NCBI GenBank assembly: GCA_024743015.1
Contig: JANSXJ010000007.1
Coordinates: forward strand, 1-23,365
Length of the DNA: 23,365 bases
Reading direction: 5' to 3'
Source: Hyphomonas sp.
GTDB taxonomy: Bacteria > Pseudomonadota > Alphaproteobacteria > Caulobacterales > Hyphomonadaceae
The position numbers and the translations under genes were made by a program. This document shows, in pieces, positions 3,364 to 23,365 of the stretch; the stretch's first letter is position 1, and each line of letters opens with the position of its first letter. The notes under the pieces are model-generated. The model was not told the origin of the DNA. It saw only the letters and a list, made by a program, of their open reading frames with translations, and made no database searches.

Positions 3364-4200
3364 ATGACAGATCCGTCACAACCTTTGTTTTTGTTTGGCC
3401 CCGGCTATAGCGCCCAGGCCCTTGCGGCGCTCTGGCATGGCCCTGTACTCGGAACCTATCGCTCGGAGGAGCGTCGCCAGATGCTCGAACGATCCGGAAT
3501 TCATCCGGTTTCCGTCAATAGTGAAGCCGACTTGCGCAAGGCGACGGACAGTGCGCACGTGGTGATCAGCGCACCGCCGAATGAAGATGGGTGTCCCGGT
3601 TTTGCGCGGCTTGGCGCATTCGCAGACACGGCGACCAGCCTGACTTATCTTTCAACGACCGGGGTATATGGAGACCTGGACGGCGGATGGGCCATGGAGT
3701 GGTCGCGCCCGAACCCTCAATCGGAGCGCGCCCGTCGCCGTCTCGAAGCAGAGCGGGCCTGGCAGGATGTATCAGACAATCTCTGCATCGTGCGGCTGCC
3801 GGGAATTTATGGTCCCGGACGATCGGCCTTCGATCGCCTGGCGAACGGCCGCGCCCGCAGGATCGTCAAAGAGGGGCAGGTGTTTTCTCGCGCGCATGTT
3901 GACGACATTGCCAGCGGGCTCGACGCGCTCATTCGGACCGGAGCGCGCGGCGTGTTCAATCTTTGTGATGACCTTGCTGCCCCGCCCGAGGATGTCATCA
4001 GCTTCGCCGCTGCGCTGGCGGGTATCGACCCGCCACCGGAAGTCCGGTTCGAAGACGCGGAACTCTCCGCCATGGGCAGGAGCTTTTATTCCGAGTGCAA
4101 ACGCGTGTCGAATGCCCGGCTCAAAGCCGTCACGGGGTGGCGACCGAAATACCCGACCTATCGTGACGGCTTGAGCGCGATCTTTGCTGCCGCCAGCTAG
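3364..4200 (+). CDS. Atypical SDR / NAD(P)-dependent epimerase-like protein
   Basis: This 278-residue protein has an N-terminal Rossmann dinucleotide site (FLFGPGYSAQALA, about 9-21), the SDR landmark YLSTTGVYGD (about 96-105), RLPGIYGPGRSA and a late FSRAHVDDIA segment. Together these mark the YeeZ-like atypical SDR group of nucleotide-sugar-epimerase-type proteins. The canonical YxxxK pair is not intact: Tyr is in the VYGD region and the expected Lys position falls in an Arg-rich helix. The substrate is unknown. I recall this SDR commonly lying near fzlA and queG in alphaproteobacteria; here mtgA and the TPR gene intervene. It is transcribed away from the TPR gene. Its stop overlaps that of the DUF1501 gene within CTAG. 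No strong Shine-Dalgarno is visible before the ATG. Confidence 0.85.
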   Translation: MTDPSQPLFLFGPGYSAQALAALWHGPVLGTYRSEERRQMLERSGIHPVSVNSEADLRKATDSAHVVISAPPNEDGCPGFARLGAFADTATSLTYLSTTGVYGDLDGGWAMEWSRPNPQSERARRRLEAERAWQDVSDNLCIVRLPGIYGPGRSAFDRLANGRARRIVKEGQVFSRAHVDDIASGLDALIRTGARGVFNLCDDLAAPPEDVISFAAALAGIDPPPEVRFEDAELSAMGRSFYSECKRVSNARLKAVTGWRPKYPTYRDGLSAIFAAAS

Positions 4201-5636
4201 GCGCCCGTTCCGTTCATAAAGCCAAGATCGGCGGTATTGAAGTTCGACAGGTTCGGCAATGCGCTGTTCAATTCGGAACTGTTCAGACCGAACCAGGACC
4301 CCATGGTCGCGGCGTACTGTTCCACAGAGGTGGTCGGGATCAAACGACCCCGAGATTTCGTGTACAGGCCATTGTTCAATTCCGGCGTCGGGATGTCGCC
4401 ATAAATATTCTTACCGCGGACCGATCCGCCCGCGACAATATGGTGACCTCCCCAACCGTGATCGGTGCCGTTGCCATTGTCGATAAGCGTGCGACCGAAA
4501 TCAGAAGCCGTGAAGACCAGAACATTGTTCCATTCGCCGATCTCGATCATCGCGTCCCGGAAAGTTGAAATCGCGTTCGCGAGACTTGTGTGTAAATTGC
4601 CCATTTGGGTCGATTGCGATGAGTGCGTGTCATATCCGCCCATCGTCACGTAATACATCTGACGCGAGACATTCAGGAATTGCCGGATCTTGATGGTCTC
4701 GGCAACCGCCGCCATCTGGCGAGACACGCTGGAATCGCTTGAGAAAGATGTACTAAAGGGTGTCGCATTTGCACGCGCTTGTGAATACTGCTCCGAGTTT
4801 TCGACGGCTGCAGCCAATGCAATTGCAGAGTCCTGCTCAAAAATGTTGCGACTGCCAAAGTCTCGTTTCTCAAGGAAAGCACGAATCTTGTCACGAGCCG
4901 CATCGTCGCCATCGCTGAAGCCCAGCAAATTTCGATTGTCATAAAGCTCAGGGCTGGGTGCGTCTCCGCGTGTCACGGTGAATTGCGAGACGTCGTTGCC
5001 CGCGAGGAAGACATCGTTTGCGCTCGTTGCAACGGCTGAAAATGTGCGGTTCTGGTTTGGTGCCGATGCCACCACACGGTCCATGAACTGTCCGCCCCAG
5101 CCCAGTCTGGATCCTTCGGGATCAAAGGACATCCAGGTCGATTGCTGGTCATTATGGGAGAACAGCCGTTTTGGGAGGATTGCCGTATCCGCATCCAATT
5201 GGGCGCGCGTCGTTGGCTCGATCAGCGGCCCTACATTGCCGACCACCGCGAGATCACCGGCTTCAAACATCGTGTGCAACGGTGCGAGTTCTGGCGGCAT
5301 GCCAAACTGTCGCCCGCCAAAGCTTGCCGCATTGTCCGGATTGAGCTGCAACAGGTTTGCCCGATTGCGGGAAGATGCGCTCGACCCGGCATTATACGAT
5401 CCAAACAGACCGCTGCGCAGGCCTTGCAGCTGATTGTAAGAGGTTTGATCATACGGGATGATCGTATCCGCCCCGTCCATACCGCCTTTAAGAAAGATAC
5501 AAATAATCGCTTTGTAGCCGCTCGTGTCAGCGGCCCATGCTCTGTTAAGCCCAAGGCTTGTGAGCCCGCCCATGCTGCTTGCGAACCCGGCCGTGCCGAG
5601 ACCTGCCAGAAGGTGACGTCGTGAAATATTGGCCAT
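4197..5636 (-). CDS. DUF1501 family protein with Tat signal
   Basis: This 479-residue protein begins MANISRRHLLAGLG, a twin-arginine signal (S-R-R-H-L-L), with likely cleavage after AWA near 35, so it is exported folded to the periplasm or cell surface. KAIICIFLKGGMDGADTIIPYD (about 42-63), the FTASDFGRTL segment and the DHGWGGHHIVAGG block are typical of DUF1501, a family remotely related to the alkaline phosphatase/sulfatase superfamily. The His/Asp-rich late block suggests a metal site. The biochemical function is not established. The DUF1800 lipoprotein gene lies 20 bp upstream, and AAGGAG sits about 10 bases before this ATG, so the two are almost certainly one operon. DUF1800/DUF1501 pairing is a known, widespread arrangement. 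Confidence 0.92.
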   Translation of the reverse strand: MANISRRHLLAGLGTAGFASSMGGLTSLGLNRAWAADTSGYKAIICIFLKGGMDGADTIIPYDQTSYNQLQGLRSGLFGSYNAGSSASSRNRANLLQLNPDNAASFGGRQFGMPPELAPLHTMFEAGDLAVVGNVGPLIEPTTRAQLDADTAILPKRLFSHNDQQSTWMSFDPEGSRLGWGGQFMDRVVASAPNQNRTFSAVATSANDVFLAGNDVSQFTVTRGDAPSPELYDNRNLLGFSDGDDAARDKIRAFLEKRDFGSRNIFEQDSAIALAAAVENSEQYSQARANATPFSTSFSSDSSVSRQMAAVAETIKIRQFLNVSRQMYYVTMGGYDTHSSQSTQMGNLHTSLANAISTFRDAMIEIGEWNNVLVFTASDFGRTLIDNGNGTDHGWGGHHIVAGGSVRGKNIYGDIPTPELNNGLYTKSRGRLIPTTSVEQYAATMGSWFGLNSSELNSALPNLSNFNTADLGFMNGTGA

Positions 5637-5656
5637 TCTTGTTACTCCTTCTGAGC

Positions 5657-7459
5657 TTACCAGGTGACCGCGTAAGAGGGTGAATTAAGGACGAGAGCCA
5701 CTGCTGCCTGGACTGCATCTTCCCGGTCGGCTGCGGTGTTCTCGGCAGTATTGGTTCGAATTTCGATCGTGCCTACAATGTCTGCGATGTCGGCCTTCTC
5801 GATATCAGACATGCGACCGCCCGTGAGCAGATCGTCAAGATGATCGACCAGCGCGACTGGCGTATCGAGCAAGGCCAGCTCTTCGCTATAGTCCGGTGCG
5901 TAAGTATCCATCGCGGAATCAACTTCTGATCCGCGCTCGAATGCAAAATCAGTCAGGAAGTTCATGATACCAACCGCACTGCTTGCATTTACTGTCTGAA
6001 ACTCGGGAACAGGGATGCCCTGGTCACCAGATATCGTGCCTGGGGCGACATAGCCCGGTCGATAGAAGTTGAAGACTGAGGGGGCGCGGAAGGCCTGCTG
6101 TCCTAAAGAGACCGCGTTGCTGCGCGTGTCTCGGAGCATGTTTTCATTTCTCGCATCCAACCGCTGAATGTTAAATGCTCTCGCCCAGTGCGTGAATCGC
6201 AAAATCGGCTCTCGAACCTTGCCAAGCGCGAAGTCGGTATTGCTGGACGGGTCGCTGAACAGGGTGGGTTCCAGCAGGATCGCGGCAAGCGTTGACTGCA
6301 GATCGCCGCGCTGTCCGGTTCCGAACTGCTGACCGCCTACGGCGGTAAAACGTCCGGTTTCGAATGCAGTCGCGACGCGTTCGATGTATTCAGGTGACGG
6401 GTTGGACTGCGTGAAACGCTGGATCAACTGGCGCGAGATAAACGGTGCCACATTCGGATGTTCGAATATCGCATCCAGGGCTCGGCTGATGCTCTCATTG
6501 CCCTGCGTCCCTTCGGGAATCGTCGTTCCAAGGAAACTCTTTTCAAGCTGGGAATGGCGATCCTCGATCATTTGCATCCGGCGAATCTGCGCATCGGAAG
6601 TGACGTTTCCCCCGGCGGTGCGAGCCAGATCCAGGCCAGTGAACACCTTCGCCAGACCCACCACATCATCATTTGTGTAGGTTTCGATTTGCTGTCCTTG
6701 GCCATCCAGCTTCGGGGAGCCATCCATGTTGAGCTCAACCACGCCGATGGAAAACAGCTGCAGGATTTCGCGCGCGTAGTTCTCATCCGGCATACGCCCG
6801 GTATTCGGATCCCCCTTTCGATTGCCCCGATAAGTCAGATAATTGCCCATTGCAGGAGAGTATGTGACGGCCTCGAGGACATCTCGGTAATTGCCAAACG
6901 CGTTTTCGATCAGAAGGTCCTGATAGTATGCCCGCACGAGTTGATCCGGATCGTTCACATCCGAGTAAACCAGAATCTGGGACAAGGCGAAGGCCATGCG
7001 CTGCCGGAGCTGGTCATTTGAACCGATCATGTGATCCCAATAAAGGGCGTTGATCACTTTACCCTGGAGATTGCCACTCGAGGTCCGTGGCTGCGCCAGC
7101 AAAACCGGCATCGACAAGGAAGCCGGCTTGGCAAATTCGCGGGCGACCCAGTCAGCAGCGTCAGTGCCTGTAAGAGATGCAATTTCAGTTTTCGATCCAC
7201 CGAATGTGGCGCGTGCGAGGAACCGGGATGCCTGGCTACTTTCACTCACAACAGTGCTGGTCGCGGCGGGCGGGGATCCGTTTCCGGTCGTGCCGCCGCC
7301 GCTGGCGCCGCCACCTCCAGAGCCGCCACCACCAGATCCGCCGCCGCCAACCGGGGCGATGGGCGCAACGGTGGCGTCACCGCCACCGCCGCCGCAAGCG
7401 GCGAGAACAAGTCCTGCTGCGAAGATTGTACTGACTAAGTAGCTCGGCGACTTACGCAT
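5657..7459 (-). CDS. DUF1800 family lipoprotein
   Basis: This 600-residue protein begins with a lipoprotein signal ending LVLAAC (lipidated Cys22). A low-complexity linker (about 23-66) follows, very rich in Gly and Ser and including GGGGSGGGGSGGGG. The DUF1800 domain follows from about 75 to 600. Hallmarks are the ARATFGG region (about 83), RMAFALSQILVYS, MPDENYAREILQLFSIGV and APSVFNFYRPGY. The linker would hold the domain away from a membrane. The family's biochemical role is unknown. It is the first gene of a two-gene operon with the Tat-exported DUF1501 protein. AAGAGGGA stands upstream of the ATG and a candidate CtrA box lies about 104-119 bp upstream. No truncation is apparent. Confidence 0.92.
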   Translation of the reverse strand: MRKSPSYLVSTIFAAGLVLAACGGGGGDATVAPIAPVGGGGSGGGGSGGGGASGGGTTGNGSPPAATSTVVSESSQASRFLARATFGGSKTEIASLTGTDAADWVAREFAKPASLSMPVLLAQPRTSSGNLQGKVINALYWDHMIGSNDQLRQRMAFALSQILVYSDVNDPDQLVRAYYQDLLIENAFGNYRDVLEAVTYSPAMGNYLTYRGNRKGDPNTGRMPDENYAREILQLFSIGVVELNMDGSPKLDGQGQQIETYTNDDVVGLAKVFTGLDLARTAGGNVTSDAQIRRMQMIEDRHSQLEKSFLGTTIPEGTQGNESISRALDAIFEHPNVAPFISRQLIQRFTQSNPSPEYIERVATAFETGRFTAVGGQQFGTGQRGDLQSTLAAILLEPTLFSDPSSNTDFALGKVREPILRFTHWARAFNIQRLDARNENMLRDTRSNAVSLGQQAFRAPSVFNFYRPGYVAPGTISGDQGIPVPEFQTVNASSAVGIMNFLTDFAFERGSEVDSAMDTYAPDYSEELALLDTPVALVDHLDDLLTGGRMSDIEKADIADIVGTIEIRTNTAENTAADREDAVQAAVALVLNSPSYAVTW

Positions 7460-21962: not shown

Positions 21963-22049
21963 GCAAAACAGGCAGGCGGTTGAAAATTCGCATTTCTTTT
22001 AGGTCATGGGCTTGCGCCTTGGGCCCGTCCTGTGGAAGGACTGCGCGTC

Positions 22050-22952
22050 ATGGATTGGGATAAGCTGAAGTCATTTCACGCGGCCGCAGAAGCCGGTAGT
22101 CTTACGGCGGCAGGGGAGCGCCTGGGGATTTCTCAATCGGCTGTCTCTCGTCAAATAGCGGCACTTGAAGAGCAGCTGGGCGTATCCTTGTTTCAGCGCC
22201 ATGCTCGCGGACTGGTACTGACCGATGCCGGACACACGCTGCACCGCTCGACCGTCGATATGGCGACAGCTGCGCAGGGGGCCAGCGCCGCCCTGAAGGA
22301 TCAGCAAGACGTTGCGCAAGGTGAACTGATCGTCACGGCGCCTGTCGCTTTCGGCTCGACCTGGCTCGTGCCGCGCCTTGGCGCATTTGTCAGTCAGCAT
22401 CCAGAAATGCGCATCGATCTGCGCCTGGATGATGGCGAGCACTATGATCTCCTGAAACTGGAGGCCGAGTGCGCCATCCGATTGTGGGCGGCTGACAAGG
22501 CGGACCTCATTCAGCGAAAGCTCGCGACGGTTGCGACCAACCTTTATGCCTCGCCGGAATACATCAAACAGCATGGAATGCCGCGTACGCCGCAGGATTT
22601 GGATAATCATCGCATTATCGCCTATGGCGCAGCCGACAGCCCGATCACGGCCATGAGCTTCGCTGAACGGGTTGGACGCGACGATGCCGGCCCGCGAAAA
22701 GCGGCTCTGACGGTGAACAATGTCTCTGCCATGCTGCGCGCGGCGGAGGCGGGGCTTGGGATTGCCGATCTTCCGGATTACATGGTCAGCGCCGTTCCGC
22801 GGCTTGTTCGGGTACTTGAAGACTTCACAGGCCCGAGTTTCGATCTCTACTTCATCTATCCCAGCGACTTGAAGCGATCGAAGCGAATTGGCGCGTTTCG
22901 GGACTTCCTGACCGGTCAGGTCGAGGCGTTCCGGTCTTCACCCTTGCGGTAA
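22050..22952 (+). CDS. LysR family transcriptional regulator
   Basis: From the ATG at 22050 the protein has 300 residues. The N-terminal winged helix (about 1-60) has WDKLKSFHAAAEAGSLTAAGERLGISQSAVSRQIAALEEQLGVSLFQR in LysR order. The effector domain (about 90-295) has two alpha/beta lobes, beginning GELIVTAPVAFGSTWLVPRL. A GTG at 22032 is in frame, but GGAAGGA at 22034-22040 is ideally placed for the ATG at 22050. No divergent partner gene is present, since the upstream repressor gene runs in the same direction, so its target is not suggested by position. The ligand is unknown. Confidence 0.93.
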   Translation: MDWDKLKSFHAAAEAGSLTAAGERLGISQSAVSRQIAALEEQLGVSLFQRHARGLVLTDAGHTLHRSTVDMATAAQGASAALKDQQDVAQGELIVTAPVAFGSTWLVPRLGAFVSQHPEMRIDLRLDDGEHYDLLKLEAECAIRLWAADKADLIQRKLATVATNLYASPEYIKQHGMPRTPQDLDNHRIIAYGAADSPITAMSFAERVGRDDAGPRKAALTVNNVSAMLRAAEAGLGIADLPDYMVSAVPRLVRVLEDFTGPSFDLYFIYPSDLKRSKRIGAFRDFLTGQVEAFRSSPLR

Positions 22953-23011
22953 AGAATATTGACTCTCTGTAATCTATGCGAAATTGCATGTCGCTTTTGC
23001 GCACTTGCATG

Positions 23012-23041
23012 TTGCAATTACAACTAAGAAGCCCATATACC
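23012..23041 (+). promoter_or_regulatory. Candidate promoter of the small RNA
   Basis: TTGCAA (23012-23017) and ATATAC (23035-23040; or TATACC one base on) are spaced by 17-18 bp, a plausible housekeeping-sigma -35/-10 pair. Transcription would begin near 23046-23048, shortly before the structured RNA. Confidence 0.45.
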
Positions 23042-23046
23042 CCCCG

Positions 23047-23156
23047 TGTTGAGGTTCCGGACACGACCCGATCATTCCTCCGATTGGGTGTTTCCTCCCC
23101 CAGACGGAACCAAACTTTAAGGCCTGGCTGCGTATCGCGCCGGGCCTTTTTTCTTA
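23047..23156 (+). ncRNA. Probable trans-acting small RNA with anti-SD motifs
   Basis: A transcript of about 105-110 nt is predicted in the gap after the LysR gene. GGTTCCG (23053-23059) pairs perfectly with CGGAACC (23105-23111). Inside, ACCCGAT (23066-23072) pairs with ATTGGGT (23083-23089), presenting a loop with TTCCTCC. The stretch TTTCCTCCCCC (23091-23101) stays single-stranded. Both C/U-rich motifs can pair with Shine-Dalgarno sequences. A strong intrinsic terminator closes the RNA. The UUUCCUCCC motif and the hairpin/motif/terminator order resemble the MmgR (alpha-r8) family of alphaproteobacterial sRNAs as I remember it. No open reading frame with a ribosome site is visible. The 5' end is estimated from the promoter. 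Confidence 0.65.
23119..23156 (+). terminator. Strong rho-independent terminator
   Basis: AAGGCCTGGC (23119-23128) pairs with GCCGGGCCTT (23139-23148), 10 pairs with one G-U. The loop can extend the stem by GCG/CGC. TTTTTTCTTATTT follows. The orientation is plus, so it ends the sRNA (or LysR readthrough) and abuts the stop codon of the convergent TadG-like gene. There is no T-run on the minus side. Confidence 0.85.
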
Positions 23157-23365
23157 TTTGCTGATCCGAACCAGAGTCGTCAGGAGCGAGTTGAACGCAA
23201 TTCCGATTTCGCCCGACGAGATGTTGTAGAAATCAGCCTCAGAACTGGCACACTGCTTGAGATAAGAGATCGCGGTGGAGTCATTGATGTCCACGGCAAT
23301 TGTGTAGAGCTGAACGCCGTACTGTGTTTTCATCTGCTCGCAGGAATCGAGCATCAGATTGTCGA
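23154..23365 (-). CDS. TadG-like pilus-assembly/VWA protein, C-terminal fragment
   Basis: Only the last 70 or so codons lie in the window; the gene continues past the right edge, so no start is assigned. The visible end contains a DSCEQMKTQYGVQLYTIAVDI strand-helix unit, LKQCASSEADFYNISS and a closing SLLTTLVRISK. This is the usual tail of TadG-type proteins, where a von Willebrand A domain ends with a CA(S)S motif after a small-molecule or protein-binding fold. TadG is a membrane-anchored component of the Flp/Tad pilus system. The stop codon lies against the terminator of the small RNA. Confidence is limited by truncation; another VWA-domain protein is possible. Confidence 0.75.
   Translation of the reverse strand, partial: DNLMLDSCEQMKTQYGVQLYTIAVDINDSTAISYLKQCASSEADFYNISSGEIGIAFNSLLTTLVRISK

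Follow-up and report, generated by a model that had tools for sequence, protein, structure and literature searches.

In Rhizobiales, the gene for the small RNA AbcR1 is reported to be flanked by that of an LsrB/VtlR regulator (PMC8844928, PMC7486931, PMC10746234). Sinorhizobium meliloti LsrB is described as binding TGCA-N6-GCAT at positions -72 to -57 of nfeR1 and activating this gene, and a matching LsrB site precedes abcR1 (PMC10746234). The papers conflict on abcR1 itself, with one stating that S. meliloti AbcR1 requires LsrB (PMC8844928) and another that LsrB is uninvolved (PMC7486931). The latter also gives a VtlR box, GCAT-N3-TG-N3-T, and describes the trxB-vtlR order as well conserved across the class (PMC7486931); a section heading elsewhere terms LsrB an LTTR unique to Rhizobiales (PMC11975290). 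For alpha-r8 (MmgR/SisA-D, RF00519), the usual single copy is reported to adjoin an FGase gene, while Caulobacter carries four siblings and extra paralogs elsewhere are allowed (PMC12559287).

We analyzed a 23,365-nt stretch of DNA (the window) from a marine Hyphomonas sp. (GCA_024743015.1, contig JANSXJ010000007.1). A small RNA gene (23046–23158, plus strand) is located between a lysR gene and a convergent TadG-like gene, of which a 69-codon C-terminal part is present (23154–23363; the name is that of an earlier reader). Elsewhere, the window contains a DUF1501/DUF1800 gene pair (4197–7459). An earlier note had proposed an independent small RNA at this site, and the comparisons below support it. 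The RNA is likely to be an AbcR-like, trans-acting sRNA that is controlled by an LsrB/VtlR-type regulator and has a new, pseudoknotted body.

The regulator and its candidate operator

The lysR gene (22032–22952, plus strand; likely start ATG at 22050) encodes a LysR-type regulator of LsrB/VtlR type with Pfam HTH_1 and LysR_substrate domains. Its product matches A. tumefaciens LsrB (PDB 9HH1) with an E-value of 2.2e-75 and 256.7 bits, the next structure scoring 107.8. Orthologs were found in 106 of 190 genomes of the class at E<=1e-50, with one match each except for three genomes with two; these counts fit class-wide conservation, unless they include close paralogs. Regulator and RNA are neighbors at 118 of 125 loci; the loci come from partly overlapping collections and hence do not represent 125 genomes. 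The regulator match ends 107–256 nt (mostly 135–160) 5' of the RNA core. The seven nonadjacent cases are L083, L101, L102, and L139 (short upstream DNA), L141 (contig end), L154 (regulator ~1.6 kb off), and L158, which is not a family member. Among 61 family genomes in the order sample, RNA and regulator occur together in 56 and are both missing in five. Just 5' of the regulator, a TrxB-type CATCDG signature is encoded in 24 of the 28 loci that score best outside the family, and it is absent in both Hyphomonadaceae loci tested (L200 and L201).

A palindromic candidate operator, ATGCG-AAAT-TGCAT (22976–22989), lies at ~-70 to -57 of the probable start, and a second, weaker copy, TTGCGCACTTGCAT, can be read at 22997–23010. 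The promoter-like pair of the earlier note is present on the plus strand as TTGCAA (-35-like, 23012–23017) and, 16 nt away, CATATA (-10-like, 23034–23039), the latter occurring at a similar position in relatives by eye. Consensus scanners called neither a promoter nor a terminator over 22500–23365. The promoter scanner uses the sigma-70 consensus, from which TTGCAA/CATATA is far removed, and the terminator scanner allows loops of at most 8 nt, as against 10 nt here. Of 54 aligned loci, 51 have a palindrome that matches ATGCA-N4-TGCAT in 9 or more of 10 letters precisely at the RNA site, and in 49 of these it lies 113–117 nt before the core. The exceptions are L013 (7 letters), L018 (8 letters), and L102, which has no upstream DNA. 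A wider count, in which some rows were read at the wrong core or are nonmembers, gives 62 of 73; mononucleotide shuffles yield the palindrome in 16 of 4200 cases. Over 12 genomes the pattern has 31 matches in 11 genomes, of which eight (both strands counted) are at the RNA locus, so that the operator pattern alone defines no regulon. The published VtlR box did not look conserved when compared by eye in a few loci.

By analogy with S. meliloti, the LsrB/VtlR-type regulator probably activates the RNA, for which it would bind ATGCA-N4-TGCAT centered at ~-63. Its signal is perhaps redox, as in Agrobacterium, and the circuit would correspond to that of Rhizobiales in which LsrB/VtlR acts on AbcR1 or NfeR1. 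The RNA gene is on the same strand as lysR and begins 93 nt past its stop codon, as would fit a product released by RNase E from the lysR 3'-UTR with no promoter of its own. Small RNAs derived from 3'-UTRs exist, SorX being an example. However, the conserved candidate operator and the -10-like element separate lysR from the RNA, and we give this origin little credence. The RNA is instead expected to be ~105–113 nt in length, to be transcribed from its own promoter, and to act in trans.

A predicted pseudoknot around the inner hairpin

The RNA has a predicted folding energy of -47.1 kcal/mol (z -4.96), which 0 of 200 shuffles equaled. It contains an H-type pseudoknot in which GTGTT/GACAC (S1, five pairs) crosses GGTTCCG/CGGAACC (S2, seven pairs). 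The 5' arm of S1 (23046–23050), identified by covariation and a comparative scan, is followed after a 2-nt loop by the 5' arm of S2 (23053–23059), which is located within the S1 loop. The 3' arm of S1 (23060–23064) comes next with zero intervening nucleotides, giving the order GTGTT-GA-GGTTCCG-GACAC, and the 3' arm of S2 lies further 3' (23105–23111); these three arms were assigned by covariation, and all features of the RNA are on the plus strand. Enclosed by the pseudoknot are the inner hairpin S3 (23066–23089; ACCCGATC at 23066–23073 and GATTGGGT at 23082–23089) and a second segment, TTTCCTCCCCC (23091–23101). The S3 loop, ATTCCTCC (23074–23081), is by fold and sequence the first anti-Shine-Dalgarno module and is the TTCCTCC-containing loop of the earlier note. 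The TTTCCTCCCCC segment is the second module and is single stranded provided that S1 and S2 both form. An intrinsic terminator (23119–23159) ends the gene, its 10-pair stem (23119–23128 and 23139–23148) and T tract being found by sequence and fold, in agreement with the earlier reading.

The seven-pair closing stem that had been described before is S2. It is a real helix, and it constitutes one half of a pseudoknot, S1 having been missed. The finding of S1 makes the structure a pseudoknot and shifts the probable, predicted transcript start from 23047 to ~23046. The position of the S2 5' arm within the loop of a second hairpin was noticed in a side-by-side reading of relatives.

Both crossing helices covary. 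The S1 letters change together (GTGTT/GACAC, ATGCC/GGCAT, ATGCG/CGCAT, TAGCC/GGCTA, and GCCG/CGGC), as do those of S2 (GGTTCCG/CGGAACC, GGTCTCG/CGAGACC, GGGTCCCG/CGGGACCC, GGGTCCTG/CAGGACCC, and GGGCCCCG/CGGGGCCC). Changes on both sides of a pair are seen in the alignment for 4 of 5 S1 pairs and 7 of 8 S2 pairs. In alignment A1, 92.9% of cells are paired, as compared to 86.6% in shuffles and 23.7–52.2% with slid partners, and 16 pairs changed on both sides versus 9.0 in shuffles; none of the whole-structure measures on A1 was reached by shuffles (0/500). The compensatory changes called for by the earlier note were counted on a tree of the neighboring regulator protein (48 of 54 rows, >180 residues; single parsimony reconstruction, midpoint root), and the stems are preserved. 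For S2, 14 compensatory events stand against 6 breaks; the corresponding counts are 12 and 6 for the terminator and 1 and 4 for the inner hairpin. S1 gives a weak tree signal, with 3 events and 5 breaks, in part because the rows of one Henriciella clade are misaligned by one column. In that clade, S1 has just three pairs (GCC/GGC) and S2 is one pair shorter.

Distant relatives are stronger evidence for the pseudoknot than the tree-based S1 counts. With a permissive scan the null was 31–45%, which made it uninformative, and a stricter, fixed rule was used in its place (S1 of at least 4 pairs, S2 of at least 5 pairs, S2 arm at most 18 nt past the core). By this rule, the pseudoknot is found in 13 of 15 distant members (shuffle null 5.7%), its letters there being unrelated, as in TGCATGA/TCATGCA crossing GTCTC/GAGAC and AGCGAG/CTTGCT crossing TGCCTC/GAGGCA. 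Hyphomonas and other loci have it in 22 of 27 cases (null 2.8%). The figures are 13 of 26 for Henriciella loci, rising to 25 of 26 if an S1 of three pairs is allowed (null 4.1 and 12.5%), and 1 of 3 for divergent Henriciella loci, rising to 3 of 3 (null 9.8 and 26.8%). Genome G033 carries two tandem RNA copies 3' of the regulator (L152), one of which has the pseudoknot by the fixed rule.

Each helix is favorable by itself, with an energy gain over S3 plus terminator of -10.3 kcal/mol for S2 and -4.2 kcal/mol for S1, and S1 and S2 might be mutually exclusive folds of a switch rather than parts of a stable pseudoknot. We regard such a switch as rather improbable, as the H-type junctions are near-constant even where the letters differ entirely: the gap before S2 is mostly 2 nt in the family and 0–3 nt in distant loci, and 0–1 nt follow S2. 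Two open frames, of 62 and 24 codons, run across the RNA, but single-base length changes in A1 break the frame while the helices are kept, leaving a negligible chance that the stretch encodes a small protein. In the nested fold, TTTCCTCCCCC, which the earlier note took to be single stranded and which is indeed present, is partly paired (unpaired probability 0.08–0.97 across its first five bases), and the single-stranded core is in part masked by bases belonging to the 3' arm of S1. Formation of S1 would free this core. The pseudoknot may enclose the inner hairpin together with an unpaired UUUCCUCCCCC segment, protecting the 5' end and presenting the two CCUCC modules.

Distribution and relation to alpha-r8

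A DNA similarity search matched 27 of 61 genomes, the window genome included. An exact 24-base pattern across both CCTCC motifs was found in 52 contigs of named species genomes and in no virus contig searched. Nearly all of the 52 are Henriciella, Hyphomonas, other Hyphomonadaceae, or unplaced Alphaproteobacteria. Two are labeled otherwise, one as a Rhodobacterales MAG and the other as Ca. Sulfopaludibacter, which probably reflects misnaming or contamination of the bins; the Sulfopaludibacter record (L084) carries a typical Hyphomonadaceae locus, and contamination is probable. A family covariance model built on 54 distinct rows has matches in 83 of 105 genomes and 6 of 10 genera of the family, which is Hyphomonadaceae by its named matches. 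Across the order it matches 71 of 299 genomes, with those matches near 30 bits that were inspected being mostly other alpha-r8-like RNAs.

Motif conservation was counted on the 27 similarity-found loci alone, the 52 contigs being preselected for both motifs. The loop TCCTCCGATTG is kept in 26 of these loci (L016 is the exception) and GTTTCCTCCC in all 27. Of the model-found Henriciella loci, L141 and L142 have no loop motif and L143 and L144 retain CCTCC. In distant loci (genera g3 and g6, family f3), the loop CCTCC is missing in 13 of 14, L159 having one, whereas the CCTCC core is retained in 14 of 14. The loop motif is a lineage-specific addition, as suspected earlier of the double motif. 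The expectation that both UCCUCC motifs persist in relatives holds for the CCUCC core in the relatives examined and does not hold for the loop. The closing stem had likewise been thought lineage specific; as distant loci keep the core but not the loop CCUCC, this stem is more widespread than the double motif.

No Rfam family matches the window at gathering level. At the same level, 20 RNA or regulator loci of the order returned a tRNA only, and 20 class-level loci returned no match. The earlier note pointed to a resemblance to MmgR/alpha-r8 RNAs, and the Rfam comparison it suggested does not bear out membership of that family. The window RNA scores 27.4 bits against suhB/MmgR (RF00519; E 0.0007 for 281 bases), as compared to a gathering value of 41; further scores are 23.7 bits for anti-hemB, 21.7 for ar14, and 12.1 for SorX. 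A better suhB match, the best in the window genome, lies on a separate contig (G000:C408), scores 40.2 bits, just below the cut-off, and adjoins an FGase gene (PF05013, 1.2e-70). This FGase-linked alpha-r8 gene (L160, 5887–5962, minus strand) is convergent with the FGase gene and has a PhaR-like TGCAGTGCA upstream. The PhaR motif of S. meliloti is reported to contain YGCRNYGCR (PMC12542648), and by analogy the PhaR–MmgR link of that organism may exist at the FGase-linked copy. For the window RNA, TGCA-rich upstream DNA had hinted at PhaR control, which was rejected, the spacing of its palindrome differing from YGCRNYGCR.

The window RNA and alpha-r8 share the order hairpin, GGGCGUUUCCUCCC (GGGUGUUUCCUCCC in the window), ACUU, and terminator. 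Of the alpha-r8 motif UUUCCUCCCU that follows the hairpin, the window has UUUCCUCCCC (9 of 10 letters, predicted to be single stranded), and UUUCCUCCCU itself is present in a second Henriciella clade. These likenesses would suit a paralogous alpha-r8 member that gained a closing stem and loop motif; suhB/MmgR is also the best Rfam near-miss, sibling genes are described in Caulobacter (four; PMC12559287), and the cut-off argument is weak, in that the FGase-linked copy falls short as well. Still, paralogy seems unlikely to us. The FGase-linked copy is separate in the window genome, and the family model gives this canonical copy 18.6 bits only. The pseudoknot is at chance level by the fixed rule in canonical alpha-r8 loci (2 of 29; null 6.7%), and the regulator is adjacent to 0 of 31. 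The window RNA differs from alpha-r8 in not being FGase linked, in its other upstream site, in being pseudoknotted, and in scoring well under the Rfam cut-off. It is probably not the MmgR/alpha-r8 gene, and membership was not accepted on the grounds of the sub-cut-off score, the separate FGase-linked copy, and the chance-level pseudoknot of canonical copies. Given the common core GGGCGUUUCCUCCC, a remote common origin with alpha-r8 may exist.

Other suhB-like loci have the pseudoknot by the fixed rule in 2 of 21 cases (null 5.7%). In Henriciella, another suhB-like RNA (L186, L187, L188, and L197) has a hairpin ending in GAAGCG, followed by TTTCCTCCC-AGACTTCC and a terminator, and L190 and L191 have an RNA of similar type. 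At L196 (~154–200), two TTTCCTCCC segments stand in tandem between two strong hairpins, in a stretch that resembles an RNA.

Titles and abstracts of open-licence literature on sRNAs of Hyphomonas and Hyphomonadaceae gave no account of the window RNA, nor did those on AbcR1, LsrB, or VtlR in Caulobacterales (best 10 of 11) or on pseudoknotted sRNAs of Alphaproteobacteria (best 12 of 17). Among the papers listed there was likewise no sRNA study devoted to Hyphomonas or Hyphomonadaceae.

Candidate targets, regulator loci across the class, and described counterparts

The UUCCUCC loop and the free segment would base-pair with target mRNAs at their purine-rich ribosome-binding sites and block translation, with Hfq probably bound at the U-rich terminator tail. 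A search for GGGAGGAAA-N2..9-ATG in six genomes gave 78 matches, as compared to 4 with a reversed control. Thirty of the 78 loci were inspected, and 27 have frames of at least 40 codons. Some candidate targets resemble, by eye, TonB-dependent-receptor and catabolic-enzyme genes, and one similar pair was found between genomes; no strongly conserved target emerged among the inspected loci of the six genomes. Such complementarity upstream of ATG is expected for any anti-Shine-Dalgarno-type RNA.

The half-sites of the operator are spaced by N4 in the window and by N5 in loci of the class beyond the order, where 14 of 28 loci have the same half-sites N5 apart. By eye, 18 of these 28 class loci have a CCUCC-bearing RNA and a terminator within 420 nt and 10 have none; 16 of the 18 combine a CUCCCA-type hairpin with CCUCCCUG or a slight variant of it. 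Eight such loci were compared with Rfam, the best score being 42.6 bits to SorX (cut-off 46.6); suhB and SorY matched more weakly at the positions of the SorX matches. In class loci outside the order (L204–L228), the LsrB-type gene is followed by an RNA whose end, ACGTCTCCCAGACGTGAAGCCTCCCTG with a terminator, is widely shared; this end has no Rfam match at cut-off. In Caulobacterales families f3 and f4, an RNA is visible by eye at 9 of 20 regulator loci and none at 11. Of three f3 RNAs, L236 and L239 have the pseudoknot by the fixed rule and L233 does not. The f4 RNAs have TCCTCCCC in or near hairpin loops; among them, L240, L241, L244–L246, and L249 carry different TCCTCCCC-loop RNAs after the regulator, some with an N4 operator.

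We hold it an even chance that regulator and operator form a fixed 'socket' across Alphaproteobacteria, an ancient module in which the anti-Shine-Dalgarno RNA body has repeatedly been rebuilt or replaced as an exchangeable effector. In such a scheme the effector would be AbcR in Rhizobiales; other orders would have SorX-like double-CUCCC RNAs, one Caulobacterales family would have hairpin-loop RNAs, and the window would carry a new pseudoknot-locked Caulobacterales effector family. Two questions become testable, namely whether the AbcR circuit is older than Rhizobiales and whether a regulator and its operator can outlive the RNA under their control. An sRNA family with no Rfam match in the tested loci also gains a structure, a probable regulator, and a comparison set.

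Among described RNAs, AbcR1/AbcR2 (alpha-r15) resemble the window RNA in their position directly 3' of an LsrB/VtlR-type regulator, in a TGCA-rich dyad at ~-70 to -57 with the same half-sites, and in two anti-Shine-Dalgarno modules (in the window, the loop and the single-stranded CCUCC). Unlike AbcR, the window RNA is pseudoknotted, its operator is one base shorter, and the family loci L200 and L201 have no trxB signature. No AbcR-type family was among the Rfam matches to E 10, and Rfam 15 may hold no such model. NfeR1 (alpha-r14, cuckoo RNAs, RF02344), reported to be LsrB activated (PMC10746234), similarly has an anti-Shine-Dalgarno sequence in a hairpin loop; the window RNA differs in having one UUCCUCC loop rather than three CCUCCUCCC and scores 21.7 bits versus a cut-off of 58.8. 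SorX (RF02784) is dissimilar to the window RNA itself (12.1 bits versus a gathering value of 46.6), whereas the RNAs that follow the regulator in several of the eight class loci are SorX-like. RydC of enterobacteria is likewise a pseudoknotted sRNA, one whose pseudoknot is reported to be required for its stability (PMC4337610), but it uses its 5' end to pair with cfa mRNA and has no known sequence relation to the window RNA. The window RNA may stand beside RydC as a further case of a pseudoknot that possibly protects or presents the seed of a bacterial sRNA.
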